In this document: one piece after another, positions 3,318-19,706 of the stretch
How positions within the stretch are numbered: position 1 is the first letter of the stretch
Layout: the number at the start of each line of letters is the position of its first letter
Assembly: GCA_947650005.1 (NCBI GenBank)
Contig: CANSTU010000033.1
Span: 1-36,439 of the forward strand
From: an uncultured Lachnospiraceae bacterium
GTDB lineage: Bacteria > Bacillota > Clostridia > Lachnospirales > Lachnospiraceae
DNA length: 36,439 bases
Reading direction: 5' to 3'
Notes under the pieces: generated by a model
The model's input: only the letters and a program-made list of their open reading frames with translations
What the model was told of the DNA's origin: nothing
Database searches by the model: none
Position numbers and translations under genes: made by a program

Positions 3318-3322
3318 CCTAA

Positions 3323-3362
3323 CTCCCATCTATCCGCCTCTCAGCGGGCACTTAAATCAGGC
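3323..3362 (-). repeat. Two-hairpin intergenic repeat, degenerate copy before recN
   Basis: On the coding strand this reads CCTGATTTAAG, then a short GC stem (CCGC/GCGG), then ATAGATGGGAG, which serves as the recN Shine-Dalgarno sequence. An upstream TTCCC tract can pair with GGGAG. It is the most diverged copy of the family but keeps the order of elements. Confidence 0.6.
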
Positions 3363-3432
3363 TAAGGGAACTCTCGTTTCTTGTGAAATCGAAGATGTTC
3401 ACGTTAACTTCCAGATCGCATCGCACAGCAGA

Positions 3433-3455
3433 CCGGCAGAATCCCTCCCTGCCGG
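3433..3455 (-). other. Hairpin after argR
   Basis: A perfect 7-bp stem CCGGCAG/CTGCCGG with a 9-base loop lies about 20 bases after the argR stop. No T-run follows on the coding strand, so it is not a clear terminator. It may stabilise the argR 3' end or form part of the recN leader. Confidence 0.4.
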
Positions 3456-3474
3456 AAATATTTTAAAATCCGTA

Positions 3475-3930
3475 TCAGGCGCGCTCCAGTATTTCCCATA
3501 TTTTATCCATCACGATGCGTGTATCCTCCACGCTCCGAACCGCCATCATGATCGTATCATCACCGGCTATACTCCCCACGATTTCCTGAAACCGCATGGC
3601 GTCCACGGCGGCTGCCACAGCCATTGCCATTCCGGATACCGTTTTGATCACCAAAATATTCTGGGCCATATCCATAGAAACAAAGCCGTCCTTGAGAACC
3701 CTGACATACTTATCCCATAGCCTGCCGTCATCCTGCCGCAGTATAGCATACTTCTGCCTTCCGTTTGACGCGGGTACCTTGGAAAGATGAAGCTGTCTGA
3801 TATCCCTGGAAACGGTGGCCTGGGTCACCGCAAACCCTGCTTCTTTCAGACGTTCCGCCAGTTCTTCCTGTGTTTCGATTTCGTCCGCCTCTATCAGTTC
3901 CACAATCTTCTCATGTCTGCTTTGTTTCAT
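3475..3930 (-). CDS. argR: Arginine repressor ArgR
   Basis: ArgR is a hexameric arginine-sensing regulator of arginine synthesis and catabolism. The 151-residue product has the N-terminal winged helix (about 1-70, including TQATVSRDIRQLHL) and the C-terminal oligomerisation and arginine-binding domain, with the hallmark GSIAGDDTIMMAV. The start ATG at 3930 gives MKQSRHEKI, with GATGGGAG nine bases upstream. A GTG seven codons earlier lies inside the intergenic repeat and was rejected. It lies between nadK and recN. In this neighbourhood it is often called ahrC. Confidence 0.95.
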   Translation of the reverse strand: MKQSRHEKIVELIEADEIETQEELAERLKEAGFAVTQATVSRDIRQLHLSKVPASNGRQKYAILRQDDGRLWDKYVRVLKDGFVSMDMAQNILVIKTVSGMAMAVAAAVDAMRFQEIVGSIAGDDTIMMAVRSVEDTRIVMDKIWEILERA

Positions 3931-3935
3931 GCCTG

Positions 3936-3983
3936 GCTCCCATCTGCGCACTGTTATACGCCTAAAATCAGAGGAAAGCTTTC
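3936..3983 (-). repeat. Two-hairpin intergenic repeat before argR
   Basis: On the coding strand: a small palindrome GAAAGCTTTC, then CTCTGATTTTAG, a stem GCGTA/TGCGC with loop TAACAG, and CAGATGGGAGCC, which provides the argR Shine-Dalgarno sequence. The TTTCC tract next to the palindrome can pair with GGGAG, with G-T pairs. Confidence 0.65.
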
Positions 3984-4043
3984 GTTCTCCTTCTTTCGCA
4001 AGCGGCTTTTCCCTTAAGGGACGCTTTACGAATGAAAATCCGT

Positions 4044-4913
4044 TTAACCGCTCATCTTTCTATGTAAACGTTCCACAAAGCTCATCTGGCTTAACTTCAA
4101 AATAGAGGTGGTTTTGGAACTGCGCATCACGCGGAGCCGGTCTTTGCTGCATAGAACCATCTGTCGGCCGCCATCGAAGTTCACTTCCACTTCCTGTTTT
4201 AATCCGGACTGTTTCTCCCCGATCTCCACTTCCACCACATCATCCCCGCGCAGCACGATGCTCCTCGTATTCAGCGTATGGGGACAGATGGGCGTTAACA
4301 GGATCAGATTAGCCCCGGGTTCTACGATCGGCCCGCCCGCGGAAAGGTTATAGCCTGTGGAACCGGTGGGAGTTGCAATCACGATTCCGTCCGCTTCATA
4401 GCTGTTGAGCGCCTGCCCGTTCACCCAGATGCGGAAACGGATAATCTGCAGGGATCCCTTTCTGGTAATGGTCACATCGTTGAGGGCGTGCATTCGGGCG
4501 TCTTTCCCATTCCCGTTTCCATCTATAACTTCTCCGGAAAGCATCATGCGCTCTTCGATCAGATATTTTTCCTGTAAAAGCCGGTTTAATGCCCCGTCCA
4601 GCGCCGAAGGATCTACTTCAGCCAAATATCCCATCGTCCCCAGATTCACGCCCAGCAGAGGAATTCCGCTCGCTGCCGTTTCCTTTGCTGCCTTGAGCAT
4701 GGTTCCGTCTCCTCCCAGAACGATCATACAGGAAACCTTCTCTTCCCCTTCTTTGGGGAAGCGTATCTGATCCGCTCCCTCATTATCCGCGAAAACGGTA
4801 CAGGAAGCTCCGTTTCCCTCCAGATACGTCCGAATTCTTTCGGTCACTTCCAGTCCCGGATCCTTGGGCCTGTTTGTCATGATGATATATCTTTTTTTGT
4901 TTTCCGTCTCCAT
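4044..4913 (-). CDS. nadK: NAD kinase
   Basis: NAD kinase phosphorylates NAD to NADP using ATP or polyphosphate. The 289-residue protein has the family hallmarks: the GGDG motif at 67-70 (in VLGGDGTML), the NLGTMGYLAEV segment, and DGIVIATPTGSTGY at about 175-188, where the second glycine-rich element more often reads GSTAY. It is slightly longer than many Firmicutes homologues but complete. It sits 43 bases after tlyA and before argR in the probable long operon. The Shine-Dalgarno sequence is weak (GGGGTTGGG directly before ATG). Confidence 0.95.
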   Translation of the reverse strand: METENKKRYIIMTNRPKDPGLEVTERIRTYLEGNGASCTVFADNEGADQIRFPKEGEEKVSCMIVLGGDGTMLKAAKETAASGIPLLGVNLGTMGYLAEVDPSALDGALNRLLQEKYLIEERMMLSGEVIDGNGNGKDARMHALNDVTITRKGSLQIIRFRIWVNGQALNSYEADGIVIATPTGSTGYNLSAGGPIVEPGANLILLTPICPHTLNTRSIVLRGDDVVEVEIGEKQSGLKQEVEVNFDGGRQMVLCSKDRLRVMRSSKTTSILKLSQMSFVERLHRKMSG

Positions 4914-4956
4914 CCCAACCCCTGTTCTTTATTTGCCAGCCGAATAGAATACACCA

Positions 4957-5847
4957 TCAGAAATCCCCTTGGGCATCCAATTCGTTATGGGCCTGCTCAA
5001 CCAGTCCGGCAATCTGCTTCCATTCCTCTAAAGCAGCCGAAAGCGTTCTTCCTGCCATGAGGCGCTCCAGTTCCCGTTCCGCTTCCTGCTCCTCCCATTC
5101 CCTTGCAGCTTCCGTTCCCTTTCGCAGATGAATCAGATATTCGATATTTCCCTCCGGTCCTTTCACCGGCGAAAAGGTAAGTCCCAGGATCTCGTACTCC
5201 AACAGAGCGGCGTAATCCGCTATCTTGGAGACTACTTCCTTATGAACCGTTGCGTCCCGTACCACGCCCTTCTTTCCCACTTTTTCCCGGCCGGCCTCAA
5301 ATTGGGGTTTGATCAGGCAGACCATTTCTCCTCCCGATTTTAAAAGCTTGCGGGCTGGTATCAATATCTTGGTTAAAGAGATAAAGGAGACGTCCACCGA
5401 GGCGAAGTCCAAGTCGTCTTCAATCTCCTCTCGACACAGATAGCGGAAATTGGTTCTCTCCATGCAGACCACTCGTTCGTCATTTCGCAGCTTCCATGCC
5501 AGCTGGCCGTGTCCCACATCCACTGAATAGACCTTTTTTGCCCCATTTTGCAGCATACAATCGGTAAAACCGCCCGTTGATGCTCCAATATCCATGCAGA
5601 CCTGATCCCTTAAATCAATGGGAAATTCCTTCAGAGCCTTTTCCAGCTTCAACCCTCCCCTGCTGACGTATTTCAAGGGATTTTCCTTTACCCGGATGAC
5701 TGCCGTCTGCGCATCGAACAGAGAACCCGCTTTATCTTCCCTTTGTCCGTTCACAAACACATTTCCGGACATGATCACAGCCTTGGCCTTTTCCCGCGAA
5801 GCCGCATAGCCCTGCTTTACCAGCAGGATATCCAATCGTTCTTTCAC
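4957..5847 (-). CDS. tlyA: TlyA-family rRNA 2'-O-methyltransferase / S4-domain protein
   Basis: TlyA proteins combine an S4 RNA-binding domain with an FtsJ-like methyltransferase fold; the mycobacterial member 2'-O-methylates 16S and 23S rRNA. The 296-residue product starts with the typical KERLDILLVKQG. The S4 domain spans about 1-62 and the SAM-binding motif I is MDIGASTGGFTD (about 85-96). I chose the GTG start at 5847, preceded by AGGGG at good spacing; the frame stays open to 5895 but that extension is not family sequence. In Bacillus the homologue is yqxC, in the same dxs-tlyA-argR order. Whether this protein methylates rRNA or acts as a haemolysin is not known from sequence. Confidence 0.92.
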   Translation of the reverse strand: MKERLDILLVKQGYAASREKAKAVIMSGNVFVNGQREDKAGSLFDAQTAVIRVKENPLKYVSRGGLKLEKALKEFPIDLRDQVCMDIGASTGGFTDCMLQNGAKKVYSVDVGHGQLAWKLRNDERVVCMERTNFRYLCREEIEDDLDFASVDVSFISLTKILIPARKLLKSGGEMVCLIKPQFEAGREKVGKKGVVRDATVHKEVVSKIADYAALLEYEILGLTFSPVKGPEGNIEYLIHLRKGTEAAREWEEQEAERELERLMAGRTLSAALEEWKQIAGLVEQAHNELDAQGDF

Positions 5848-5926
5848 TCTTATACCCCTGCATATCGCAAGCGGAGCCTGCGATACTGCCACCAATAGAA
5901 AGTTTGGAATTTACTTCCGAACTTAT

Positions 5927-5980
5927 CGTCTGCGTGCAAAGCACGCACATAAATTCAGAAAGTTGAAACGAAGTTTCAAG
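5927..5980 (-). repeat. Two-hairpin intergenic repeat before tlyA (downstream copy)
   Basis: Coding strand: hairpin TTGAAAC-TTC-GTTTCAA, then CTGAATTTATG, then hairpin GCGTGC-TTT-GCACGC, then AGACG. This copy lacks a good GGGAG end, and tlyA uses a separate Shine-Dalgarno sequence about 80 bases downstream. It is the second of two tandem copies. Confidence 0.75.
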
Positions 5981-6043
5981 CTTTTACCCATCTGCGTGCA
6001 AGGCACGCGCTCAAATCAAGAGGGTAAAACGAAGTTTCAAGCT
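5981..6043 (-). repeat. Two-hairpin intergenic repeat after dxs (upstream copy)
   Basis: This copy overlaps the dxs stop codon. Coding strand: CTTGAAACTTCGTTTTA, TTTTACCC, TCTTGATTTGAGC, hairpin GCGTGC-CTT-GCACGC, AGAT, GGGTAAAA. The arms TTTTACCC (6022-6029) and GGGTAAAA (5982-5989) are a perfect 8-bp match around the GC hairpin. This is the clearest example of the outer stem that encloses the GGG end. Confidence 0.8.
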
Positions 6044-7899
6044 TTGTTCCACACTTCCTTAATCCGCCTCAGAATGGATGTCTCATCGATCCCGATTTCC
6101 TGTTTCAACAGTTCTACATTCCCATGCTCCACATATTCGTCCGGAATGGCGATGGGCAATACCTGTAAAGAAAGTCCCGCATCCTCTACATAATCCCGAA
6201 CCCGCTCTCCGAAGCCTCCGCTAGCCACATTCTCTTCCATGGTTACAAGGAGTTTATGGCCGTCTTCCAGACGTCGGATCATCTCCTCATCCACTGGTTT
6301 TATAAAACGAGCATTTACTAAACTGCAAGGGATTCCTTCCTTTTTCAGGCCATCCCGTACCTCTTCCGCGGTTTTTACCATGCTTCCCGCGGCGAATAGG
6401 GTAATTCCCTCTTCCTCATAGATCATTTCCGCTTTGCCGAATTCCACCGGCGCCCGCCAGGCAGCCAGCCCATCATAGGCTTCTCCCCGCGGGTAACGGA
6501 TGGCAATGGGGCCTTCAAACCCTTCCGCAAACTTCATCATATCGGAAAGCTCCCATTTATTCTTCGGAGCCAGGATGTGCATGTTCGGAATGGAGGACAG
6601 ATAGGAAAGGTCAAAAATACCCTGATGGGTTTCCCCGTCGCTGCCCACCAGGCCGGCCCTGTCGATGGCAAAGATCACAGGCAGGTTCTGGATACATACG
6701 TCGTGTAGAATCTGATCATAGGCCCTCTGTAAGAAGGAAGAGTATACGGCCACCACAGGCTTCAACCCTCCCGCAGCCAGCCCTGCGGCAAAGGTTACCG
6801 CATGTTGTTCCGCAATCCCCACATCAAAAAAACGTTCTGGATAGGCATGGCTGAATCGCTTTAGCCCCGTCCCGTCCGGCATCGCGGCGGTGACCGCCAC
6901 AATTTTGTCGTTTCTCTGGCCCATCTTGATCATGATTGTGGAGAAAACATCGGTATAGTTGGCCTTCATCTTCTTTTTTTTCGGCACGCCCGTCTTCACG
7001 TCGAAGGGCTCCGCCCCGTGAAATCTGGCCGGATGCTTTTCCGCCGGAGCATATCCCTTGCCCTTCTTCGTGATTACATGAATCATCACCGCATTTTTTC
7101 TACGCTTCGCTTCCCCGATCACCCGGATCAGTGCATTGGTATCGTGGCCATCCACTGGCCCCAGATAGGTGATCCCCATATCTTCAAACATCATCCCCGG
7201 AATCACCAGCTGCTTCAGGCTGTTTTTGGCCCGACGGATTCCCGCCACCACGGGCTGTCCATATTTCGTGTTTCGGATGGCATAGTAAATCCCGTCCTTC
7301 ACATCCAGATAGGCATTGGAGGTTCGAATATTGTTCAGATAGGTGGATACACCGCCCACGTTTCCGGAGATAGACATGTTATTATCATTGAGAATGATGA
7401 TGAAATTGGTTTCCAACAGGGCGGCGTTGTTCAACGCTTCATAAGCCATGCCTCCCGTTAAGGAACCGTCGCCGATGACGGATACCACCGTATAATCGTC
7501 GTCTTGGATATCCCTGGCATGAACCATACCCAGTCCTGCTGAAATGGATGTGGAACTGTGCCCTGTGTCAAAACAGTCACAGTCGCTCTCTTTCCTTTTG
7601 GGGAATCCGCTCATTCCCCCATATTTTCTGAGCGTTTCAAAACCGTCCCGCCGCCCGGTGAGCAGTTTATGAGTATAGGACTGATGGCCCACATCCCAGA
7701 TAATCTTATCCTCCGGCAGATTTAGGGCCAAATGAAGCGCCATAGTCAGTTCCACGGCCCCGAGATTGGAACCCAGATGTCCGCCCGTCACACTGATTTT
7801 GTTCACCAAAAATTCCCTGATTTCCGCAGCCAAGGCAACGTAATCTTTCGGACTTATATTCTTGATATCGTTTGTCTTTTTTATCTGATCCAGAAGCAT
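6037..7899 (-). CDS. dxs: 1-deoxy-D-xylulose-5-phosphate synthase
   Basis: DXS condenses pyruvate and glyceraldehyde 3-phosphate to DXP, the first step of the MEP isoprenoid route, using thiamine diphosphate. The 620-residue protein is full length. It shows the conserved H41 (TGGHLGSNLG), DVGHQSYTHKLLTGR (69-83), the TPP-binding GDGSLTGG (143-150) and, in the transketolase pyrimidine domain, DRAGLVGSDGETHQG. It starts 12 bases after ispA, with AAGGGGG before the ATG. Placement beside ispA makes a prenyl-precursor pair. Its stop codon lies inside a structured intergenic repeat. Confidence 0.98.
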   Translation of the reverse strand: MLLDQIKKTNDIKNISPKDYVALAAEIREFLVNKISVTGGHLGSNLGAVELTMALHLALNLPEDKIIWDVGHQSYTHKLLTGRRDGFETLRKYGGMSGFPKRKESDCDCFDTGHSSTSISAGLGMVHARDIQDDDYTVVSVIGDGSLTGGMAYEALNNAALLETNFIIILNDNNMSISGNVGGVSTYLNNIRTSNAYLDVKDGIYYAIRNTKYGQPVVAGIRRAKNSLKQLVIPGMMFEDMGITYLGPVDGHDTNALIRVIGEAKRRKNAVMIHVITKKGKGYAPAEKHPARFHGAEPFDVKTGVPKKKKMKANYTDVFSTIMIKMGQRNDKIVAVTAAMPDGTGLKRFSHAYPERFFDVGIAEQHAVTFAAGLAAGGLKPVVAVYSSFLQRAYDQILHDVCIQNLPVIFAIDRAGLVGSDGETHQGIFDLSYLSSIPNMHILAPKNKWELSDMMKFAEGFEGPIAIRYPRGEAYDGLAAWRAPVEFGKAEMIYEEEGITLFAAGSMVKTAEEVRDGLKKEGIPCSLVNARFIKPVDEEMIRRLEDGHKLLVTMEENVASGGFGERVRDYVEDAGLSLQVLPIAIPDEYVEHGNVELLKQEIGIDETSILRRIKEVWNKA

Positions 7900-7911
7900 G
7901 GAACGCCCCCT

Positions 7912-8844
7912 TTACTTTTTTCTCGTGATCAGGTCTTCCACCAGCATTTCCAGAAAAACATTATTTCCAAGGGCTTTTAGAGAGGAAAGCGCTTCCTTTG
8001 ACAGCCTGCGCACCTCCTTGACAGAATTTTCTATGCCGTTCAAAGATACGTAGGTCACCTTATGGTTTTTCAGGTCGCTTCCGGTCTGCTTTCCCAATTC
8101 CTCCAGGCTGCTGGTCAAATCCAGGATGTCATCCTGAATCTGGAAGGCCAGGCCGATTTTGGATCCGATCTTTTCCAGGCAGCGCACATCTTCTTCCCCG
8201 CATCCCGCCAGGATTCCGCCGATCATCATGGCGCTTTCGATCATCGCCGCCGTTTTGTTTTCATGAATGTAGAGAAGAAGCTCCTGGGAAATGCGTTCTT
8301 CGGGAAAATCCTCCGCCTGAGTGTCCGCGCACTGGCCGCCGATCATCCCTCCGATTCCTGCCTTTCCGGCCAGGATGCCAAAAGCCTTTGCGCAGCGATA
8401 CATCCATTCCCCATTTCCGGCCACCCTAGCCCCGTCAAAGGCCTGGGTGGCCGTCTCAAAGGCCAAATTCAGGAGTGCATCCCCTGCCAGCACAGCCATT
8501 CCCTCCCCATATACAGCATGGGTGGTTTTGCGTCCTCTTCGGTATTCATCATTATCCATACAGGGAAGATCGTCATGCACCAGGGAATAGGTATGAATGA
8601 ATTCAATCGCTGCCATAAAAGGCTCTAATAGGCACCGAGCCTTATCCTCCCGAACATCTTCCTGTGTAAAAAGACGGAAACATTCCCGCATAAGCATGGG
8701 GCGAAGTCGTTTTCCTCCTGCTAATACGCTATAAGAGACAGCCTGGGAGACGGTAGCGGCATAACCCTCTTCTTTGGGAAGGTATCTTTTCAAGATTTCC
8801 TCTATGGCCTCCGTCTCTTCCTTTCTCCTTGGTTCAAAATTCAT
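7912..8844 (-). CDS. ispA: Polyprenyl synthetase (farnesyl/geranylgeranyl diphosphate synthase type)
   Basis: This trans-isoprenyl diphosphate synthase elongates DMAPP with IPP, probably to FPP, for undecaprenyl and quinone precursors. The 310-residue protein carries the GGKRLRP motif (43-49), the first Asp-rich motif DDLPCMDND (91-99) and the second, QIQDDILDL (about 231-239). The two residues between the paired Asp groups of the first motif suit short-chain bacterial FPP synthases, but chain length cannot be settled from sequence. The ATG overlaps the end of xseB by 11 bases, so translation is probably coupled. Confidence 0.94.
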   Translation of the reverse strand: MNFEPRRKEETEAIEEILKRYLPKEEGYAATVSQAVSYSVLAGGKRLRPMLMRECFRLFTQEDVREDKARCLLEPFMAAIEFIHTYSLVHDDLPCMDNDEYRRGRKTTHAVYGEGMAVLAGDALLNLAFETATQAFDGARVAGNGEWMYRCAKAFGILAGKAGIGGMIGGQCADTQAEDFPEERISQELLLYIHENKTAAMIESAMMIGGILAGCGEEDVRCLEKIGSKIGLAFQIQDDILDLTSSLEELGKQTGSDLKNHKVTYVSLNGIENSVKEVRRLSKEALSSLKALGNNVFLEMLVEDLITRKK

Positions 8845-9037
8845 CCAGTTCTCCTTCCCCGTTCAGTACCAACACCTTTTTCTCCACTCTGTCGATCCTG
8901 TCGCTGCATAGCTTCAGCAGATCCATCCCCTTTTTATATGCCATAAAGGATTCCTCCAGAGAAATATCCTCTTTCTCCAGGGAATCCGTAATTTCATCCA
9001 ATACATGAAAGGCCTCTTCCAAGGACATTTCTTCCAT
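8834..9037 (-). CDS. xseB: Exodeoxyribonuclease VII small subunit
   Basis: XseB is the small helical subunit that coats XseA in exonuclease VII, a single-strand DNA exonuclease. The 67-residue product has the family pattern SLEEAFHVLDEITDSLE, then EDISLEESFMAYKKGMDLLK. It lies between xseA and ispA. It follows xseA by 110 bases that hold two structured repeats, the second providing the ribosome-binding site GATGGGAGC six bases before the ATG. It overlaps ispA by 11 bases. Confidence 0.95.
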   Translation of the reverse strand: MEEMSLEEAFHVLDEITDSLEKEDISLEESFMAYKKGMDLLKLCSDRIDRVEKKVLVLNGEGELDEF

Positions 9038-9042
9038 TTTTT

Positions 9043-9085
9043 GCTCCCATCTGCGCGCTTTTGCGCGCGTACAAATCAGGGTAAT
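9043..9085 (-). repeat. Two-hairpin intergenic repeat before xseB (downstream copy)
   Basis: Coding strand: ACCCTGATTTGTAC, hairpin GCGCGC-AAAA-GCGCGC, AGATGGGAGC, which is the xseB Shine-Dalgarno sequence. The stem differs from GCGTGC/GCACGC elsewhere by paired changes on both arms. CCC can pair with GGG. Confidence 0.8.
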
Positions 9086-9144
9086 CCCATCTGTGTGCAG
9101 GGCATGCGCTCAAATCAGGAGATTGAAAAATTCAACTTTCAATC
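9086..9144 (-). repeat. Two-hairpin intergenic repeat after xseA (upstream copy)
   Basis: Coding strand: AT-rich hairpin GATTGAAA/TTTCAATC (9121-9144), CTCCTGATTTGAGC, a weaker GC element (TGC-CCT-GCA) and ACAGATGGG. It is in tandem with the next copy. It begins four bases after the xseA stop. Confidence 0.75.
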
Positions 9145-9147
9145 TTT

Positions 9148-10371: not shown

Positions 10372-10440
10372 GCCGCGCCTTTACCAGTTGAAAACAGCCG
10401 GACAAGCATTTCCCAACTCGGAAAATACAGCCCCCTTCTT

Positions 10441-10857
10441 TTACATGAATCGTGCGAGCACACCGTTCACAAATCCCGCAGATTCGTCCCTGCCGAATTT
10501 CTTCGCCAATTCCACTGCCTCATTGATGGCCACGCTGCCTGGAACTTCTTCATCAAAACGAATCTCATAGACGGCAAGACGTATGATGGCCAGTTCCACT
10601 TTTCCCATCCGGCCGATGGTCCAGCCCTGAGCCGTATTGCTGATCAACCCGTCAATCTCCGGCAGCTTCTCCAGGATCTTGTCCACCTTCTGATGGATAT
10701 AGTCCCTGCTTTTTGGGGAAGAAGCGTTTTCTTCATCCTCAAAAAAAAGCATACACTGCTCCGGCATTTCCTCTATCGAATTAAATTCCACACGGAACAG
10801 CAGTTTAAAAATCTGTTCCCTTAGTTCTCTTCTGCCCATCCCTCTCATCCCACTCAT
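10441..10857 (-). CDS. nusB: Transcription antitermination factor NusB
   Basis: NusB binds boxA RNA with S10/NusE to support rRNA antitermination. The 138-residue all-helical protein has the usual RRELREQIFKLLFRVEF start and the ending DESAGFVNGVL, close to the family's F-VNGVLD-. Three ATGs (residues 1, 4 and 7) lie in frame and none has a strong Shine-Dalgarno sequence; MGRREL, the third, fits the family best. It is preceded by a strongly paired 87-bp gap after asp23 and followed by xseA. Confidence 0.95.
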   Translation of the reverse strand: MSGMRGMGRRELREQIFKLLFRVEFNSIEEMPEQCMLFFEDEENASSPKSRDYIHQKVDKILEKLPEIDGLISNTAQGWTIGRMGKVELAIIRLAVYEIRFDEEVPGSVAINEAVELAKKFGRDESAGFVNGVLARFM

Positions 10858-10873
10858 ACTCTTAGTATTCTGC

Positions 10874-10938: not shown

Positions 10939-10944
10939 CCGTCC

Positions 10945-11334: not shown

Positions 11335-11365
11335 AGGGCTGCCTCCTTTAATTCCTATAATAGTG

Positions 11366-11494: not shown

Positions 11495-11499
11495 TACGC

Positions 11500-12729: not shown

Positions 12730-12754
12730 GCCTGGCTCCTTTCCTCAATTCGGA

Positions 12755-14350
12755 TCAATTTCTGCTAAATTCTGTCAACACAAGCCCAGGATTCCGATCC
12801 AAAGTCATTCCCACACTCCATTCGTTTACAAATAAAAGCAGGGGGTTTCCTTTCATATCTTTTACCTTCTTCATGTCGGAAGTACCCGTCAGCCTATCCA
12901 TATCCAGGCCTTCCCAGTCCTCGATCCATCGGATATATTCATAGGGAAGGGGCTCTAAACGGATATCCACGTTGTATTCGTTCTCCAGCCTATAACGGAG
13001 TACATCGAACTGAAGGACACCCACCACTCCTACGATGATTTCCTCCATACCCGTATTGTATTCCTGAAAAATCTGTATGGCGCCTTCCTGGGCAATCTGC
13101 GTGATTCCTTTGACAAACTGTTTTCTTTTCATGGTATCCATCTGCCTCACCCGGGCAAAGTGTTCCGGCGCAAAGGTAGGGATCCCCTCATAGGAAAAAG
13201 TTTCCTTCGGGCTGCAGATGGTATCTCCGATGGAAAACACACCGGGATCAAAGACTCCTATGATGTCCCCCGCATAGGCTTCCTCCAGAATCTTCCTTTC
13301 GCTGGCCATGATCTGCTGGGGCTGGGACAGGCGCATGGCTCTGCCTCCCTGCACATGCTTTACTTCCATGCTGGCCTCAAATTTGCCGGAGCAGATTCGC
13401 ATGAAGGCGATACGATCCCGGTGGGCTTTGTTCATATTGGCCTGTATTTTAAACACAAATGCGGAAAAGTCCTTTTCCACCGGATCCACCACGCCGCAGT
13501 CCGCCGTCCTCGGCAGCGGCGTAGTCGTCATCTGCAGGAAGTGCTGCAGAAAAATTTCCACGCCGAAATTGGTGAGGGCAGACCCGAAAAAGACGGGCGT
13601 TAAGTCCCCGCTGCGTACCTCGTCCAAATCAAATTCGGCGCTGGCCCCGTCCAGCAGCTCTATTTCCTCCAAAAGTTTCATCATGGCCTCGCTTCCGATG
13701 GCCTCTTCCACCCTCTGTTTCTCTTCGATCGGAATCCGAGTGGCCTCCCCCTCTTTTGTGCCCTTTTCCGTATCGGAATAGATGACCACGCAGCGCTTGT
13801 CCCTGTCATAGATGCCCTTAAAACCTTTGCCCGAACCGATGGGCCAGTTTTTCGGGCACGTGGCGATTCCCAGCTCCTTTTCGATTTCATCCAGAAGGTC
13901 AAAGGTCTCATTGGCATCCCTGTCCATCTTGTTGATAAAGGTGAAAATCGGTATTTTGCGCATCACGCAGACCTTGAACAGCTTCCTGGTCTGGGCCTCC
14001 ACGCCTTTAGAACCGTCGATCACCATAACCGCCGAATCCGCGGCCATGAGCGTGCGATAAGTATCCTCCGAAAAGTCCTGGTGCCCGGGGGTATCCAGAA
14101 TGTTGATGCAGTATCCGCCATACTCAAACTGCAGGACCGAGGAGGTTACGGAAATTCCCCTCTCTTTTTCGATCTCCATCCAGTCCGAAACAGCATGTCT
14201 GGCCGTGGCCTTTCCCTTTACGCTTCCGGCCAGGTTGATGGCGCCTCCATATAAGAGAAACTTTTCCGTCAGCGTTGTTTTTCCCGCATCTGGATGGGAT
14301 ATGATGGCAAACGTCCGTCTTCTGTTAATTTCTTGCTTCAGATTACTCAC
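12755..14350 (-). CDS. prfC: Peptide chain release factor 3
   Basis: RF3 is the GTPase that removes RF1/RF2 from the ribosome after peptide release. The 531-residue protein carries G1 HPDAGKTT (19-26), switch RGISVTSSVLQFEY, G3 DTPGHQDFSEDTYR and G4 NKMDRDANETFDLLDEIE, all intact, and the RF3-specific C-terminus. It starts at GTG (MSNLKQEINRRRTF), with the AGGAG of an intergenic repeat ten bases upstream, longer than ideal. It lies between deoB and the transglutaminase gene. Confidence 0.97.
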   Translation of the reverse strand: MSNLKQEINRRRTFAIISHPDAGKTTLTEKFLLYGGAINLAGSVKGKATARHAVSDWMEIEKERGISVTSSVLQFEYGGYCINILDTPGHQDFSEDTYRTLMAADSAVMVIDGSKGVEAQTRKLFKVCVMRKIPIFTFINKMDRDANETFDLLDEIEKELGIATCPKNWPIGSGKGFKGIYDRDKRCVVIYSDTEKGTKEGEATRIPIEEKQRVEEAIGSEAMMKLLEEIELLDGASAEFDLDEVRSGDLTPVFFGSALTNFGVEIFLQHFLQMTTTPLPRTADCGVVDPVEKDFSAFVFKIQANMNKAHRDRIAFMRICSGKFEASMEVKHVQGGRAMRLSQPQQIMASERKILEEAYAGDIIGVFDPGVFSIGDTICSPKETFSYEGIPTFAPEHFARVRQMDTMKRKQFVKGITQIAQEGAIQIFQEYNTGMEEIIVGVVGVLQFDVLRYRLENEYNVDIRLEPLPYEYIRWIEDWEGLDMDRLTGTSDMKKVKDMKGNPLLLFVNEWSVGMTLDRNPGLVLTEFSRN

Positions 14351-14359
14351 TTTTGTTAG

Positions 14360-14425
14360 GCTCCTATCTGCGCGCTTTAGCGCGTATCAATCAGGGGAGT
14401 GAAAGATTTTCTAAATCTTTCACTC
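14360..14425 (-). repeat. Two-hairpin intergenic repeat before prfC
   Basis: Coding strand: a perfect 13-bp AT-rich hairpin starting GAGTGAAAGATTT (14397-14425), then CCCTGATTGAT, GC hairpin GCGC-TAAA-GCGC, and CAGATAGGAGCC. CTCC of the first hairpin's foot can pair with GGAG, the prfC Shine-Dalgarno sequence. Confidence 0.8.
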
Positions 14426-14444
14426 TTGGCTCCAGGTCTTTTGA

Positions 14445-15626
14445 TTACGGTTTCGGCTGGGAAACCAGTATTTCAGGAAGCATGCTCTCTGCGCTGAATT
14501 TGGACTGTACCCCGAAATAATCCAAAACCGTTGCTCCGATATCAGCAAAGGTACGCCTCGTCCCCAGATTCACGGGACGGATTTTCTTCCCGTAGATCAC
14601 AAGGGGCGTGTATTCCCGGGAATGATCCGTAGATGCAAGATAACCCGGATCGCATCCATGATCCGCCGTAATCATCAGCAGATCATCTTCCCGCATCTTG
14701 GCCGTTAATTCAGGGAGCTTCTCGTCAAAATATGCCAGCGCTTTAGCATATCCTTCTATATCATTCCTATGCCCATAGAGCATATCATAATCCACCAGGT
14801 TAATAAAACAAAGACCTTCAAAATCCTTGTCCAAATATTCCAGCGTCCGATTGATTCCTTCCACATTGCCCTTCGTGTATACATGTTCGGTCAGGCCTTT
14901 TCCAGCGAAAATATCGTAGATCTTTCCCACGCCCGCCACATCGTATCCTTCCTCTTTTAACTGATCCAGCATATCCACAGACGGGGGTTCTATGGAAAAA
15001 TCGTGTCTGCCCGCGGTCCTGGTATAGTTTCCGCTCTGCCCGGTAAACGGGCGGGCGATTACTCGGCCAACGCCATGCCTGCCGCACAGAAGCCGCCGGG
15101 CAATACGGCAGTATTCATATAGCTCTTCCACAGGCACCACATCTTCATGGGCAGCAATCTGAAAAACGCTGTCAGCAGAGGTATATACGATCAGATCCCC
15201 TGATTCCATATGCCGATCGCCGTAATCCCTGATCACATCCGTCCCGGAATAGGGCCTGTTGCACAGCACGCCTCTTTGGGTTTTTTGGGAAAATTCATCC
15301 AAAAGCTCCTCAGGAAAGCCTTCCGGATAGACGGGAAGCGGGCTGCCGGAATAGATTCCTGCGATTTCCCAATGGCCTATTGTGGTATCCTTCCCCTTGG
15401 ACGCTTCCCGCATACGCGCCACCGCAGCCAAAGGCGACGGACAGGGAGCGTGCCAGTCCATTCCCTCTATATTAAAAAGGCCCATTTTTTCCATATTCGG
15501 CATACGGAAATGTGGGCTGGATGCGGCGCTCTTTAATGTATTCGTTCCCACATCCCCGTATAACTGCGCGTCTGGCGCAGCCCCGATTCCAACGCTGTCC
15601 AATACGATTAAAAAAATTCTTTTCAT
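14445..15626 (-). CDS. deoB: Phosphopentomutase
   Basis: DeoB interconverts ribose (or deoxyribose) 1- and 5-phosphate in nucleoside salvage. The 393-residue protein belongs to the alkaline-phosphatase fold: N-terminal metal site DSVGIGAAPDA, GKDTTIGHWEIAG, the cap domain, and the C-terminal metal ligands ITADHGCDP and STDHSREY. It has a strong GAGGAG Shine-Dalgarno sequence seven bases before ATG and a possible own promoter. No other nucleoside-salvage gene is next to it, so it looks like a stand-alone housekeeping gene placed between spoIIIAH and prfC. Confidence 0.97.
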   Translation of the reverse strand: MKRIFLIVLDSVGIGAAPDAQLYGDVGTNTLKSAASSPHFRMPNMEKMGLFNIEGMDWHAPCPSPLAAVARMREASKGKDTTIGHWEIAGIYSGSPLPVYPEGFPEELLDEFSQKTQRGVLCNRPYSGTDVIRDYGDRHMESGDLIVYTSADSVFQIAAHEDVVPVEELYEYCRIARRLLCGRHGVGRVIARPFTGQSGNYTRTAGRHDFSIEPPSVDMLDQLKEEGYDVAGVGKIYDIFAGKGLTEHVYTKGNVEGINRTLEYLDKDFEGLCFINLVDYDMLYGHRNDIEGYAKALAYFDEKLPELTAKMREDDLLMITADHGCDPGYLASTDHSREYTPLVIYGKKIRPVNLGTRRTFADIGATVLDYFGVQSKFSAESMLPEILVSQPKP

Positions 15627-15678
15627 ACCGTTTCTCCTCGCATTCTGCCGCAGGAAGCGGCTGATCCATTGGAAAACA

Positions 15679-15750
15679 GCCGGGGAACGGCAGGATTCCC
15701 CTTAGGCTTGGCAGATACATGCTCTAAGGGGGATTCTGGCGTTCCCTGGC
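15679..15750. repeat. Long imperfect inverted repeat upstream of deoB
   Basis: Two arms of about 27 bases (15679-15705 and 15723-15750) pair with only a few mismatches or G-T pairs, around an 18-base loop. The arms include GGGAACG...CTTAG and its complement. I see no coding content. It may be a relic of a small mobile palindromic element or a leader structure. Confidence 0.55.
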
Positions 15751-15765
15751 ATTTGAATCTAAAGT

Positions 15766-15801
15766 TTCGTAACAGTTCAGATAAATCCGAACTGTTACGA
15801 A
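15766..15801. repeat. Perfect palindrome CGTAACAGTTC in deoB leader
   Basis: TTCGTAACAGTTC and its exact complement form a 13-bp stem extended by three more pairs (one G-T), around a four-base loop. The 14-mer CGTAACAGTTCAGA recurs at 18987-19000 (minus strand) in another, shorter hairpin. Confidence 0.6.
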
Positions 15802-15858
15802 GTTTCTTCTCTCTTTGGCAAATGCGTCCTGGTGCATTCGACGCTGCCCTTTTCGGAC

Positions 15859-15867
15859 AGTATACCA
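15859..15867 (-). promoter_or_regulatory. Possible extended -10 promoter for deoB
   Basis: The coding strand has TGGTATACT, an extended -10 form (TGn plus TATACT at 15859-15864), about 230 bases before the deoB ATG. No good -35 is visible. If used, the leader would contain both inverted repeats. Confidence 0.4.
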
Positions 15868-15890
15868 TAATTATACGGTTTATGCACCTG

Positions 15891-16649
15891 TTAATTTCCA
15901 TTCACTGGGCTTATGATGATGTTTTCGGGAGCAATTCCGGTCTTTCTTGTCACGATATCTTCGATCTGGGCTCTCTGCGCATCCGTTAGGCTGCTGGCGT
16001 TAATTACTACGTCCACGGTACTTCCACTGATGCTCACCACTACATCCGAAAAGCCTTTTGCTTCCAGCAGAATTTCCGCCGCTGTTTCCTTTTCCGCCAT
16101 TTCAGTGAGGGCGATCATTCCATTGATTGCATCTTCCTTCTGTTCGTCGCTGATATTATTGTTGTTGATGATCCCGAGCAGGGTATCCTTATTTCTCGCT
16201 CTCGTCTGCTCCTTCTGCAGCTTCGCGCCAGCCAGGGAAGTGATTCCTGACGAACTGGTAAATACCGCTTCACCCGGTATCTCTCCATCCGATACGTCGG
16301 AATCCTCGTTTGCCAATTCTGCGCTTCCCTCATCCGGTCCGGCCGCAGATACGTCTACCTGTACCGTGGCCCCTTCCTGAATCAGGCCATCTACCGTCAT
16401 CGCAGAATCCAGATAGTCCGCTGCCGCTACGCCGTCTTGGTCCGTATCCATACTGTCGATATCGGACATGACATCTTCCTCCGAAAGATCCAGCAGGGCG
16501 GTCATGTCTTCTTCGGCCACCTGCGCGCTTGTGCTGGCAAACTGTTCTTCTCCTGCCTTGGTTCCGGCAAAATTCAGATATCCTGCTACGGCGATCATGA
16601 TCGCCAACGCCGTGATCATGATCTGGTTGCGTTTCAACACATTTTTCAC
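15891..16649 (-). CDS. spoIIIAH: SpoIIIAH, mother-cell channel protein
   Basis: SpoIIIAH sits in the mother-cell membrane and binds forespore SpoIIQ across the engulfment space, forming part of the feeding-tube channel. The 252-residue protein has one N-terminal membrane segment (about 11-28), a long acidic linker (about 35-130) and a C-terminal domain of the YscJ/FliF ring-building type (about 150-250, with SDVVVSISGSTVDVVINASSL). The acidic linker is long compared with Bacillus. It is last in the spoIIIA operon, 20 bases after spoIIIAG, with Shine-Dalgarno AGGAG. Confidence 0.92.
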   Translation of the reverse strand: MKNVLKRNQIMITALAIMIAVAGYLNFAGTKAGEEQFASTSAQVAEEDMTALLDLSEEDVMSDIDSMDTDQDGVAAADYLDSAMTVDGLIQEGATVQVDVSAAGPDEGSAELANEDSDVSDGEIPGEAVFTSSSGITSLAGAKLQKEQTRARNKDTLLGIINNNNISDEQKEDAINGMIALTEMAEKETAAEILLEAKGFSDVVVSISGSTVDVVINASSLTDAQRAQIEDIVTRKTGIAPENIIISPVNGN

Positions 16650-16669
16650 TCCTGATCCCTCTGCTTTCC

Positions 16670-17257
16670 CTATTTCATCTTAACTACTCTAATTTTATGT
16701 GCTTCTATATCAAATAATGCCTGAATCACCTCCGTAATATTTTTCTGTACAATCCCTTCGCCTCCCCCTTGGGCAACCACGGTCACCCCTTCCACCGCAG
16801 GCTCCAGGGTCATAACCACATAGGGTTGTCTTTCTCCGGCGGACGTCGTCGTATAGACGGTGCTTTCCTGCTGCTGGGAGCTTGCCGTTTCCCGCGATCC
16901 TCCTGCGCTGTCGCTCTCTTTCATGGTATCCATGCTCGAAGGGACATCCTTTTCCACCACTTGCTCCCGGGAGGAGCGCAGGGTTACCATCACCTTCACT
17001 TTCCCCACGCCTTCCATGGCGGAAAGCAGCTCCTCCAGCCGCTCTTCCATCTGTCTCGCATACTCTTCTTCCTGCGTTTCCTGCCTTTGTGGTTCTGCCG
17101 CCTCTCCGGCATCAGATGACATACGCTGTGTGTCCGTCTGTTTTTCCTTTTTTACAGGAAGGGCGATTACCATGAGCAAAAGACCCAAAAGCGCCATCAC
17201 AGCCATATTTTCCTTTGTCAGTCTTTTTTTCCAAAAGGCTTTACGCCCCTCAGCCAT
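16670..17257 (-). CDS. spoIIIAG: SpoIIIAG stage III sporulation protein
   Basis: SpoIIIAG forms a large ring in the engulfment membrane complex. The 195-residue protein has one N-terminal membrane segment (about 16-34), a Gln/Glu-rich linker, and the family core EERLEELLSAMEGVGKVKVMVTL (about 70-95). The C-terminal half has YVVMTLEPAVEGVTVVAQGG and the ring-building ITEVIQALFDIEAHKIRVVKM end. It overlaps spoIIIAF by eight bases and has Shine-Dalgarno GGAGGTGAT. Confidence 0.93.
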   Translation of the reverse strand: MAEGRKAFWKKRLTKENMAVMALLGLLLMVIALPVKKEKQTDTQRMSSDAGEAAEPQRQETQEEEYARQMEERLEELLSAMEGVGKVKVMVTLRSSREQVVEKDVPSSMDTMKESDSAGGSRETASSQQQESTVYTTTSAGERQPYVVMTLEPAVEGVTVVAQGGGEGIVQKNITEVIQALFDIEAHKIRVVKMK

Positions 17258-17846
17258 CCCAAATCACCTCCAATTTTTCCGTCCCCATCTGCAGGGTATC
17301 AGCAAAAAGGGTTCTCAGATTTTCCGCCTTTTCCGCCCTTTCCATATCTTCATCCTGTACTTTTGGGCTCTTTTCGTTCTCAGATGGAGTCACTTCAATC
17401 GGGTCGATTTGTATCGCTATCCGCCCGCTGGCCGTTTCCTCTCCCTGTTCGGTCACGATGATCGTCAGCCCGCCTTCCCCATCCGCCACGGCCTCCATTA
17501 TCCGCACGCCCTGTTCCTGGGCAGGGGATGCAAGCCTTTGCCGAACCGTTTCCGTAAGTGCATCATCCGCATAGTCTCCTTCCAGAAATTCCATGGATGA
17601 AACCTCTCCCCCGATCCGATCCATCTCCTGCTCATACTGCGTTAGAGCCTCGGAAAATAGCTCTTTCACTCCGGAATCCGCCAGGGAGAGGATGGGAAGC
17701 GCCAGCTGGGAAAGGAGCATAACCCCTAGGATCACTCGCGCATATTTCCTGTATTCCAATGTGGGAAGGAGGTGCACGAGCATCTGTCCTGCCAGCATAA
17801 ATATGGTTACCTCTTTCAGTATTTCCAGGAATCCATTTCCCATCAT
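17250..17846 (-). CDS. spoIIIAF: SpoIIIAF stage III sporulation protein
   Basis: SpoIIIAF is a membrane component of the SpoIIIA-SpoIIQ complex. The 198-residue protein begins with two membrane segments (about 12-29 and 37-56), followed by a soluble domain with the ring-building motif pattern (ALTETVRQRLASPAQEQGVRI, then a beta strand GGLTIIVTEQ). Two adjacent ATGs are possible starts; both follow GAGGAGGGG. It lies nine bases after spoIIIAE and overlaps spoIIIAG. Confidence 0.9.
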   Translation of the reverse strand: MMGNGFLEILKEVTIFMLAGQMLVHLLPTLEYRKYARVILGVMLLSQLALPILSLADSGVKELFSEALTQYEQEMDRIGGEVSSMEFLEGDYADDALTETVRQRLASPAQEQGVRIMEAVADGEGGLTIIVTEQGEETASGRIAIQIDPIEVTPSENEKSPKVQDEDMERAEKAENLRTLFADTLQMGTEKLEVIWDG

Positions 17847-17855
17847 CCCCTCCTC

Positions 17856-18917
17856 TCACCGGCCTGCCGTCCCCGCCAGACACGTAATAATGGCAAACAG
17901 AATCAAAAAGCAGGCCCCCGCCGTATAGGATATCCGCAGAAGTAGGAAGATCGCGTCCCCTGCTCCGCCCACACACCCTGTCAGACGCTTACCAGATGCG
18001 AGCCCCAGAAGGCCCGCGCACAGCCGAAGAATGCTTCCATAGAGCAGAAGCTTTACAAAAGGAACGATACAGAAAGCCAGCAGAAGCAATACGGCCGCCA
18101 CTCCAAGCCCATTTTTCACGAGGACAGCCGAGCCCAATAACATCTGAGCAGTCCCCTCCGCCAGCCCGCCCAACCCCGGAATGGCGGATAGCGCTTTACT
18201 TGCGGCGGTTAGCTTGAGTTGTTCCAATACCGGCGTGATCATGGATTGCAGAAGCCCTACGCCTGTCACGCATGCGAGCAGGAATTTCAAGGCGCCTTTG
18301 GCGCCCTTTTGTGTGAGCTCCAGCAAGGCATCCATACGTTTTTCTTCCCAGATACCATCCATCATTACGAGCATCATATAGACATGAATCACCGGCAGTC
18401 CGATGCTGACCAGAATCTGTTCCACACCATAAATCAGAAGCAGAATCAGTTCATAATATCCCACCGCCGTGGCCGTCCCTGCGGAAAGTCCCAATGCCAA
18501 CATAAAGGTGGGAATAAACAGGCGGACGAATAACAGCATCCTATCCAAAAGCTCCTTGGTAATCCCCGCCGCCTGCAGATAGGCGGCCAACACGACGGCC
18601 TGCATCATCAAGTAGGCGATAAAATGCGCCATATCCGCCAACTGTTGATTTTTAAAGGCCTTTGTAACCACCGTATATAGCGCCGAAAGCATTCCAATCA
18701 AAAGAAGGGTGATAAAAAGGTTTCTCATGCCGCCGACCTGTGCCTGAACGCTTGAACGCATAGACGCCATAAACGCCCCAAATGCCCCTGTCAGATCCCC
18801 CTGCAGGATGCGTGCAAAAAAGGTATGAAAATCGATCTCGAATTCTGGGAATAGCCTGTCCAGATTTTCGGATACCTCATTTATATTCAACGTCCGTTCT
18901 ATATAACCCGCATCCAT
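17856..18917 (-). CDS. spoIIIAE: SpoIIIAE stage III sporulation membrane protein
   Basis: SpoIIIAE is the large polytopic component of the spoIIIA complex. The 353-residue product has an N-terminal amphipathic region followed by about seven hydrophobic helices (NLFITLLLIGMLSALYTVV, FIPTFMLALGLSAG, ILLLIYGVEQILVSIGLPVI and others). I chose MDAGYIERTLN at 18917, preceded by GATGGGAGC at seven bases. The frame stays open 23 codons upstream, but that extension runs through a palindromic gap and is basic and atypical. A 132-bp gap separates it from spoIIIAD, unusual inside this compact operon. Confidence 0.93.
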   Translation of the reverse strand: MDAGYIERTLNINEVSENLDRLFPEFEIDFHTFFARILQGDLTGAFGAFMASMRSSVQAQVGGMRNLFITLLLIGMLSALYTVVTKAFKNQQLADMAHFIAYLMMQAVVLAAYLQAAGITKELLDRMLLFVRLFIPTFMLALGLSAGTATAVGYYELILLLIYGVEQILVSIGLPVIHVYMMLVMMDGIWEEKRMDALLELTQKGAKGALKFLLACVTGVGLLQSMITPVLEQLKLTAASKALSAIPGLGGLAEGTAQMLLGSAVLVKNGLGVAAVLLLLAFCIVPFVKLLLYGSILRLCAGLLGLASGKRLTGCVGGAGDAIFLLLRISYTAGACFLILFAIITCLAGTAGR

Positions 18918-18920
18918 GCC

Positions 18921-19000
18921 AGCTCCCATCCGCCCGCATCGGCAGGCCTTCCAAATAAATCTTACAAATCGTAACAACCAAGACACTCTGAACTGTTACG
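18921..19000 (-). repeat. Hairpins in the spoIIIAD-spoIIIAE gap
   Basis: Coding strand: CGTAACAGTTCAGA...TGTTACG hairpin (18970-19000), then further on a CCTGC/GCGGG stem followed by GGATGGGAGC, the spoIIIAE Shine-Dalgarno sequence. The layout resembles the two-hairpin repeats but lacks the TGATTTGAG box, so this is at best a distant member. Confidence 0.45.
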
Positions 19001-19049
19001 TATCCAGCCATGAAAACCGTCGTCAGGCGGGCCGGATGCATGTCAACCG

Positions 19050-19436
19050 TTATGCCATAAACCCTGAAATCGTCTCAATCAGGGATAGAAGCACCGGCAT
19101 TCCGGTTAAGAGAACCATGATTTTACCGAATAATTCTATCTGTGCGGCCACTGCCTGATACCCCGCATCTTTACAAATCCCCGATCCCAGCTCACATAGA
19201 TAGGTGATTCCGGTCACTTTCAGCAAAATTCCCAGATACCCTCCGCTTTGGCCCAGAAAGCTGCCCAGGGATTGAAGGGAATTTTTCATTTCCACCAGAT
19301 AACCTGTAATCTGAAGAAAAATCAAAAGGGACACACAGACACCGATATACAGGCCATATTCCGGCTTTCCATTTTTGAATTGAATCCCCAGCAGCGTTCC
19401 TGCCACTCCCAGCATTACAATCCGCACGATATCCAT
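19050..19436 (-). CDS. spoIIIAD: SpoIIIAD stage III sporulation membrane protein
   Basis: SpoIIIAD is a small polytopic membrane protein of the spoIIIA complex. The 128-residue protein has about four hydrophobic helices, with the conserved pieces DIVRIVMLGVAGTLLGIQFK, ISLL-type helix LLIFLQITGYL, and LLKVTGITYLCELGSGICKDAGYQAVAAQIE near the C-terminus. Shine-Dalgarno GGAGGAG precedes the ATG. It follows spoIIIAC by 12 bases. Confidence 0.94.
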   Translation of the reverse strand: MDIVRIVMLGVAGTLLGIQFKNGKPEYGLYIGVCVSLLIFLQITGYLVEMKNSLQSLGSFLGQSGGYLGILLKVTGITYLCELGSGICKDAGYQAVAAQIELFGKIMVLLTGMPVLLSLIETISGFMA

Positions 19437-19448
19437 GGCTCGCTCCTC

Positions 19449-19643
19449 CTATAATTGAAACAGATTCTGGATGGTAACGAACAAGTCATAAATATAGGGG
19501 ACGATCCAGGTGAGTACTAGGATCAGCCCGGCAAGAGAAACCAAAAAGGCCTGTTCCTCCCTGCCACTATGCTTCAATATCTGCCCAAGGAGCGTAACCA
19601 GGATTCCTACAGCCGCTATCTTAAATATCAGACTTACTTCCAT
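19449..19643 (-). CDS. spoIIIAC: SpoIIIAC stage III sporulation membrane protein
   Basis: SpoIIIAC is a very small two-helix membrane protein. The 64-residue product MEVSLIFKIAAVGILVTLL... matches the family in length and in the GQILKHSGREEQAFLVSLAG turn. A nine-codon upstream extension starts inside the intergenic repeat and was rejected; GATGGGGGC in that repeat provides the Shine-Dalgarno sequence. It lies between spoIIIAB and spoIIIAD. Confidence 0.95.
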   Translation of the reverse strand: MEVSLIFKIAAVGILVTLLGQILKHSGREEQAFLVSLAGLILVLTWIVPYIYDLFVTIQNLFQL

Positions 19644-19648
19644 CCGTG

Positions 19649-19706
19649 CCCCCATCTGCGTGCAAGGCACGCACTCAAATCAAGGAGATTAAAATTAATA
19701 TTTTAA
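19649..19706 (-). repeat. Two-hairpin intergenic repeat before spoIIIAC
   Basis: Coding strand: AT hairpin TTAAAAT-ATTA-ATTTTAA (19689-19706), CTCCTTGATTTGAGT, hairpin GCGTGC-CTT-GCACGC, AGATGGGGGC. The last part is the spoIIIAC Shine-Dalgarno sequence, and CTCC can pair with it. It is the only clear copy inside the spoIIIA operon. Confidence 0.8.

Follow-up and report, generated by a model that had tools for sequence, protein, structure and literature searches.

A short hairpin repeat that may enter translation initiation regions in Lachnospiraceae

Repeats in the recN-spoIIIA operon

The window analysed here is a stretch of 36,439 nucleotides (nt) from an uncultured Lachnospiraceae bacterium (assembly GCA_947650005.1, contig CANSTU010000033.1, positions 1 to 36,439 of the forward strand). 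Its minus strand carries an operon in the order spoIIIA - (deoB, prfC) - asp23 - nusB - xseA - xseB - ispA - dxs - tlyA - nadK - argR - recN, with gene names taken from a first-pass annotation, open reading frame (ORF) reading and known operon order rather than from a family search. This gene order is the same in a sister species, genome G002, and in 9 further congeners, as far as the stretches extend. Several gaps between these genes hold copies of a short structured repeat, here called F1, that appears to supply the Shine-Dalgarno sequence (SD) of the next gene; modules of two further families, F2 and F5, are also present (Table 1).

The first-pass annotation had described at least eight copies of F1. 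A covariance model, R1, run on the window and ten orthologous stretches, recovered seven of them as strong matches on the minus strand and the eighth, the second copy before tlyA, as a weak one; a further weak copy, the ninth in the window, lies before spoIIIAE. Because the 36 copies used to train R1 include all seven strong window copies, these matches are not independent evidence. The independent check on the reality of the repeat is an exact pattern, TGATTTNAG-N(6-20)-NCAGATGGG, which has 40 matches in the 3.59 Mb genome and 0 in the reversed control. The architecture attributed to all copies (AT hairpin, CTCC-type tract, TGATTTG box, GC hairpin and GATGGGAG) holds in outline without being present in every copy; the second xseB unit has a short linker where the AT hairpin is expected, and the upstream part of the recN unit resembles by eye the three-hairpin form of loci L312, L316 and L326 in G002. 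Every window copy is directed at the next gene, as originally noted, and one orientation relative to genes prevails in the family. Donation of the SD by the repeat, proposed for six gaps, stands in five of them, while the tlyA SD comes from an F2 module. The argR core is also found in the sister species (L105, 16070-16112, R1 E 2e-4).

Table 1. Repeat units and associated features in the window
Feature	Position	Strand	Evidence or comparison
F1 core before recN; likely start ATG at 3317	3318..3363	-	R1 E 1.1e-6
F1 core before argR; likely start ATG at 3930	3932..3974	-	R1 E 1.1e-6
F2 module (second family), source of the tlyA SD; tlyA GTG at 5847	5849..5923	-	exact motif match 5849-5868
Degenerate second F1 core before tlyA	5927..5961	-	R1 E 0.3, weak
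F1 core before tlyA, array-internal	5980..6022	-	R1 E 2.3e-8
F1 core before xseB, terminal copy; xseB ATG at 9037	9039..9082	-	R1 E 1.5e-10; sister species without unit
F1 core before xseB, first of two-unit array	9086..9121	-	R1 E 5.4e-6
AT hairpin of first xseB unit; left arm NTGAAA like a start codon	9120..9145	-	
F1 core before prfC; GTG at 14350	14356..14397	-	R1 E 3.3e-6; sister species without unit
AT hairpin of prfC unit	14397..14425	-	
Orphan SD (GGAG) 5' of prfC unit	14430..14433	-	aligns with prfC SD of sister species
F5-type hairpin and SD before phosphopentomutase-like deoB; ATG at 15626	15627..15661	-	sister species has F1 units instead
Degenerate F1-like hairpin and SD before spoIIIAE; ATG at 18917	18918..18954	-	R1 E 0.065, weak
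F1 core before spoIIIAC; ATG at 19643	19644..19686	-	R1 E 2.2e-9; sister species without unit
AT hairpin of spoIIIAC unit	19688..19708	-	
Orphan SD (GAGGA) 5' of spoIIIAC unit	19712..19716	-	

Copy number, unit structure and spacing to start codons

The view that these copies belong to a dispersed family was borne out by genome-wide pattern and model searches, which gave many further copies. With E values up to 1 accepted, R1 matched the own genome at 165 or more places (best 150 candidate regions scored) and G002 at 104 or more; all R1 copy counts are lower bounds, with 150, 104, 16 and 16 candidates of the own genome scored in the four scans. Since 22 of the 40 strict-pattern copies were among the best 150 R1 matches listed, we estimate roughly 270 copies of F1. 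The repeat had not been recognised as a named family, and Rfam (4227 models, gathering score) likewise gave 0 matches in the window; under permissive settings, the nine sub-threshold Rfam matches in positions 3300-20000 all lay away from the reported copies. A literature search of titles and abstract openings, with most subscription papers out of reach, returned no description of such a repeat. The searches made therefore yielded none of the three outcomes that the first-pass annotation had set against its own proposal, namely no further copies, random orientation to genes, or an element already described.

From 5' to 3', a full unit consists of a left hairpin with an arm opening in NTGAAA, which resembles a start codon followed by AAA, then a YTCC tract, the TGATTTG box, a GC hairpin, and an SD with its spacer. 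Its consensus is GGGAGCAAGATTGAAA-N-TTTCAATCTCCCTGATTTGANTGCCCGCTAAAGCGGGCAGATGGGAGCAA (alignment A2, which took 52 of the 66 units found), units measure about 40 or 63-67 nt, and their 3' ends read, for example, GGGAGCAAA, GGGAGCCAAA or GGGAGTTAG. A hairpin lies directly 5' of the core in 91/166 cores compared with 10/166 shuffled ones (2 of 168 copies were dropped for too short an upstream sequence). Covariation supports the fold: in the 52 full units, cells changed on both sides numbered 60 against 20.6 in shuffles, with 0/500 shuffles as high, and 90.6% of cells were paired, slid controls being far lower. Both the left hairpin and the GC hairpin contribute to this signal. Units are joined in arrays of up to six (168 of 179 R1 matches used, overlapping duplicates removed by hand). 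Stop codons in all three frames of the TGATTTGA box occur in 33/136 distinct cores against 4.85 expected from shuffles; this is above chance, yet a minority of cores, and three-frame stops were rejected as the purpose of the box.

Spacing counts in sampled arrays support a fixed distance between the SD and the start codon. For 93 of the 95 arrays of the own genome (in two the locus end was too near), a start codon opening a long frame stood 7 nt (47/93) or 8 nt (15/93) after the last GGG, together 62/93, compared with 0/93 at 7 nt and 1/93 at 8 nt in a reverse-strand control. A start codon was found within 2-59 nt for 81/93 arrays and for 25/93 in the control, which included ten matches at 2 nt that probably reflect TTG triplets within the repeat. 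Among strict-pattern copies, which are free of any influence of the model's spacer columns, a 7 or 8 nt spacing was found for 17 of the 23 terminal ones (35 matches, 30 loci fetched). Among the matches listed, the spacing was 7 or 8 nt at 19/40 loci of G002, exactly 7 nt at 13/20 loci of ten other genomes, and 7 or 8 nt for 34/81 uncut copies of a wider sequence scan, where 26 copies had no start within 59 nt and the rest lay at other distances; this last sample comprised 86 copies, 5 of them cut by the locus end, in 80 of 87 stretches, some of which belong to G002. By eye, about ten of the 19 arrays lacking a start within 14 nt continue into another hairpin module before the gene. In 128 copies the base directly before the start codon was A in 61, C in 21, G in 21 and T in 25, and positions -2 and -3 were rich in A or G, so that the edge of the element seems to lie about one base before the start codon.

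To judge from sequence, then, the gene receives its SD from the repeat, and donation of the SD is supported. Pairing of the CTCC tract with the SD was considered as a regulatory switch and rejected: the pairs are compatible, there is no compensatory change, and predicted SD accessibility is like that of other genes. A conserved leader peptide was also rejected, its frame not being kept across units. In a subfamily with 8-nt spacing (L253, L264, L250, L255, L127), a frame from the upstream SD (GTG AAA GAT ...) continues through the unit into the gene; such genes could encode extended proteins, with an N-terminal extension of the type VKDFSNLSLPLICMRAKARRWEPK.

Sister-species junctions and the proposed route of entry

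Of 31 ortholog pairs compared with G002, 30 starts were usable, L028/L166 being excluded as paired through the repeat itself. An F1-type end lay within 30 nt of the start in G002 for 10 of them and was absent for 20; by eye, some of these 20 had no hairpin module and others a module of another family. The number of units per array also varies between species. Since these 20 starts differ and the genes of the window operon are functionally unrelated, the pattern looks like mobile-element turnover and not a kept function. Conserved host function is accordingly not supported, and with it the earlier suggestion that the repeat was adopted as a standard intercistronic module.

Ten junction pairs were chosen by eye as readable from these 31 ortholog pairs, 15 more and 18 operon gaps; the 15 are the orthologues obtained when 20 of the 40 G002 loci (start at 5-8 nt) were queried. 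They are L003/L165, L121/L157, L146/L159, L015/L169, L307/L342, L310/L346, L311/L353, prfC, spoIIIAC and spoIIIAF (filled in G002). In alignments read by eye, the SD that aligns with the other species' SD lies upstream of the unit in the ten pairs, and the start codon lies downstream. At L003/L165 the empty site reads GAGGAGGAGTGAAAATG, and the filled site reads GAGGAGGA, a unit ending in GATGGGAG, then TAAAAATG; at L307/L342 the empty site is GAGAGGAGATGGGAGCGGAA-ATGATC, and the filled one has GAGAGGAGAAGGGCAGG, then TTTGAAGC...GATGGGAGCAGGA, then ATGATC. An entry point directly 3' of GGAG was our first reading, and the pairs from the G002 side moved it to the boundary between SD and start. 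Within 14 nt 5' of the NTGAAA arm, an SD-like word was present in 25/30 units that stand first in their array and have a left hairpin, compared with 7/30 and 9/30 in control windows further upstream.

We think it probable that F1 units are short mobile elements that enter the translation initiation region between the SD with its spacer and the start codon, and that re-supply the SD. The observed copy number, orientation, spacing, covariation and species difference point this way, together with the junctions read by eye. A unit would enter between the old SD-plus-spacer and the start codon, leaving the old SD upstream as an orphan that faces the start-like NTGAAA arm, and the old start codon, most often 7-8 nt past GGG, would be served by the unit's SD and spacer instead. 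As the unit brings its own SD and spacer, translation should continue, and as each unit ends in a fresh initiation region, a further unit could enter there, which would give head-to-tail arrays. The sense orientation would follow from the target being an initiation region, with no selection needed, and tolerance in core operons may reflect the element's re-supplying what it displaces. The moving form might be the folded single strand, or else a junction circle that recombines with initiation regions.

Several observations weigh against this reading. A mobilising enzyme was not found in the searches described below. Among the junctions, the other species carries F5 at L310 (pair L310/L346), the spacer is not kept at L311 (pair L311/L353), and the right junction falls 7-12 nt before the start codon in prfC and L015; in the other species, a clear SD is lacking before tlyA and xseB. 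The remaining pairs are mostly unreadable as filled versus empty because both species hold some hairpin-SD module, and no junction is base-perfect because the paired gene starts are mostly 81-94% identical. Unit ends vary between subfamilies. Of the 25 orphan SDs, no fewer than 8 form the end of an F2 module and several more resemble the ends of other modules, so that they indicate entry into initiation regions and not always the gene's own old SD. Where no start lies within 14 nt (19 arrays), about four arrays by eye (L010, L016, L059, L125) sit further upstream of a gene that seemingly has its own SD, and one (L116) is backed only by opposite-strand genes.

The main alternative differs on movement and not on target: initiation regions contain GGAG-N5-ATGAAA-like stretches, which recur across the genome in one orientation, and ordinary recombination or template switching among these could spread the units with no transposase. 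We regard this as a credible possibility, if on balance a doubtful one. No Y1 transposase match was found in the two genomes with the highest copy counts, the NTGAAA left arm is like gene starts, and array unit numbers differ between species. The second codon is AAA in 15/54 repeat-bearing genes of the own genome compared with 20/244 other first SD-preceded starts (p 2e-4), a baseline of starts and not of annotated genes, which superseded a looser one (own genome 15/54 versus 20/311; G002 4/20 versus 16/216). In G002, however, the AAA excess of 7/19 over 22/174 (p 0.012) is gone among ATG starts (2/14 versus 15/121, p 0.69), and the shared stretches are just about 10-15 nt, which is short for homologous recombination. 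Movement of REP/RAYT or IS200/IS605 type, by a Y1 HUH transposase with the CTCC tract guiding for the terminal GGAG, seems unlikely. Such an element would have hairpins at both ends, as seen here, and the tract is complementary to the terminal SD; moreover, Y1 genes occur in 10/16 copy-bearing genomes (9/15 if G299 and G433, which look like one genome, are counted once), including G299 and G380, whose copy counts are lower bounds. Yet a search for Y1 (PF01797) at E up to 0.001 gave no match in G000 and G002, the genomes with most counted copies (drafts 97.7% and 96% complete), or in six more carriers, G384 (copy count a lower bound), G349, G123, G199, G335 and G437. In 46 Y1 loci of relatives (19 plus 27 of 30 returned loci) the best R1 match beside the gene had E 0.21, with none better than E 0.2, and the CTCC-GGAG pairing shows no compensatory change. 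A Y1/RAYT transposase was therefore rejected as a present requirement for mobility, given the two genomes of highest copy count without a Y1 match and the absence of copies beside these Y1 genes. Many Y1 matches were seen in carriers G162 (13), G036 (17) and G435 (9).

Three further explanations start from the gene and not from a mobile target. A selected cis-regulatory RNA, attenuator- or riboswitch-like and kept by the host before particular genes, would account for the covariation of both helices and the place fixed relative to the start, and predicted start codons are slightly more open (median unpaired 0.53 versus 0.41, p 0.037); predicted SD accessibility, by contrast, is no different (median 0.42 versus 0.46, p 0.15), and with the 20/30 differing orthologous starts and the unrelated operon genes against it, we find this reading very unlikely. 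A mobile leader-peptide cistron, with ribosomes initiating at the NTGAAA arm from the upstream SD and reaching the gene by translational coupling, fits the SD-like word before that arm in 44/56 units (a count with no control and with array-internal units included) and loci L419 and L420 of G123, where an ATG-started frame runs to a stop adjoining or overlapping the gene start. But a stop precedes the SD in 38/56 units, equal to frame +2, and the peptides differ, which makes such a cistron improbable. Random insertion, after which selection keeps only copies compatible with gene expression, also deserves little weight: copies inside genes would be lost anyway, and the few arrays set back from a gene that has an SD of its own, like the one with only opposite-strand genes behind it, suit it, whereas an SD at initiation spacing on the left (25/30), the sharp 7-8 nt peak and the scarcity of sense copies further upstream are not predicted by it.

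Set beside known systems, the proposed entry at the boundary of SD and start codon is what distinguishes F1. Integron gene cassettes with attC hairpins are likewise hairpin units that enter a fixed kind of place and join transcription, but the present units carry no gene. As for the features of miniature inverted-repeat transposable elements, the ends NTGAAA... and ...GGGAGCAA are not inverted copies of each other (A2 consensus read by eye, ends not fixed), and SDs flank the unit, the right one being the element's own, while species divergence hides short target duplications. Like small interspersed repeats of the general BOX-like kind, F1 is dispersed, multi-copy and structured, and its place differs between relatives. 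REP/RAYT repeats and IS200/IS605 ends resemble it in being short, intergenic and of high copy number, with hairpins and a short tract 5' of the hairpin, and REP families are described with GTAG or GTGG 0-2 nt from the hairpin (the parts of PMC6006769 available). F1 instead has YTCC about 10 nt from the hairpin and, in the A2 consensus, TCTCCCTGATTTGA before the GC hairpin and not GTAG or GTGG; its copies lie at the boundary of SD and start, and the two genomes with the highest copy counts gave no Y1 match. F1 thus departs from REP/RAYT on all three features tested, a Y1 gene in the genome, copies flanking Y1 genes and a GTAG/GTGG foot. The searchable text of a further REP paper (PMC3733652) has no mention of Clostridi, Firmicutes, Lachnospir, ribosome, Shine or start codon. 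BOX, RUP and SPRITE of pneumococcus are short repeats between genes that are held to be parasitic, but the accessible part of that account describes no SD link, its mentions of start codons referring to frames inside BOX (PMC3049150). ERIC and Correia elements, as cited in the same part, are also short repeats in transcribed regions that alter the mRNA; they are described there through mRNA cleavage or promoters and not SD donation, a comparison by description only (PMC3049150). A target at the boundary of SD and start codon has no counterpart in the available portions of these accounts (PMC6006769, PMC3049150).

Carriers, further families and consequences

Among 61 relatives (best candidates scored), R1 matched 9 genomes: the own genome, G002, 5 of 11 other congeners with 1-10 matches each, and 2 of 24 further genomes of the family. 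In other families of the order, 0/24 genomes had an R1 match among the best candidates scored. A family sample gave at least 19/397 genomes with a match, the own genome and G002 included (16 candidates scored each), and a class sample at least 2/391 (best candidates scored), the own genome and one of another family, in which a copy lies 7 nt before a start. We judge the carriers to be almost all in one family, Lachnospiraceae; among the matches listed, named carriers include Kineothrix alysoides, Parablautia intestinalis and Robinsoniella peoriensis. A pattern search of a viral contig collection found 0 copies, and blastn of one 76-nt unit against plasmid and phage collections gave 0 matches.

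F2 and F5 share the design of F1. The F2 motif GCGATATGCAGGGGTATAAG has 65 genome matches at up to 3 mismatches (control 0) and the F5 motif GCGGCRGAATGRGAGGAAR 173 at up to 2 mismatches (control 1), these counts being of short 3'-end motifs and not of whole modelled units. After 19 fetched F5 matches the start codon followed one base in 16, two bases in 2 and three bases in 1. Of 17 F2 matches inspected by eye, 8 were followed by N and ATG or GTG, and most of the others by the NTGAAA-like arm of a further unit; an AT hairpin of the same kind usually lies on the left of F2. The F5 form CTGATTAAAATGCCGC...GCGGCGGAATGAGAGGAAA aligns with F1 by eye, and F1, F2 and F5 appear to form a superfamily with common ends. 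We tentatively suggest, as something that could well prove otherwise, that at least three families (F1 with an estimated ~270 copies, F5 with 173, F2 with 65), with a shared kind of end and different interiors, are mobile elements targeting the translation initiation region. Each would part an SD from its start codon, place a start-like arm of its own behind the old SD and give the gene a new one, so that several hundred genes may owe their present ribosome-binding sites to a single mobilising system.

Other hairpins were seen alongside these families. Modules chained 3' of F1 at L147, L139, L134 and L042 combine a GGACTTTG...CAAAGTTCC hairpin with an F5 end 3' of it, and G002 also has CGGATTTGGGCC...CCCAAAACGGG and ATGAATCGAAGATTCATG hairpins. 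In the window, a hairpin GTGCCTTTCGGAATACGAAAGGCAC between asp23 and nusB (10840-10960, minus strand) is kept in the sister species, and a long hairpin 5' of deoB (15674-15755, minus strand) has a sub-threshold Rfam match to an animal microRNA family, most likely by chance.

For annotation, the GATGGG of the repeat matters: its ATG is in frame with a long downstream reading frame in 46/95 arrays, so that start codons are easily called too far upstream. In recN, for example, the ORF opens within the repeat at 3329, which is 12 nt 5' of the likely start, and automatic annotation may misplace the starts of this and other genes in the same way.

Mobile repeats would not be expected in the narrow gap between a ribosome-binding site and its start codon. 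If the element does target this gap and repairs the damage it causes, that would explain why core operons in some of these bacteria are filled with repeats. It would also mean that their ribosome-binding sites turn over quickly, and would point to a mobilising activity.

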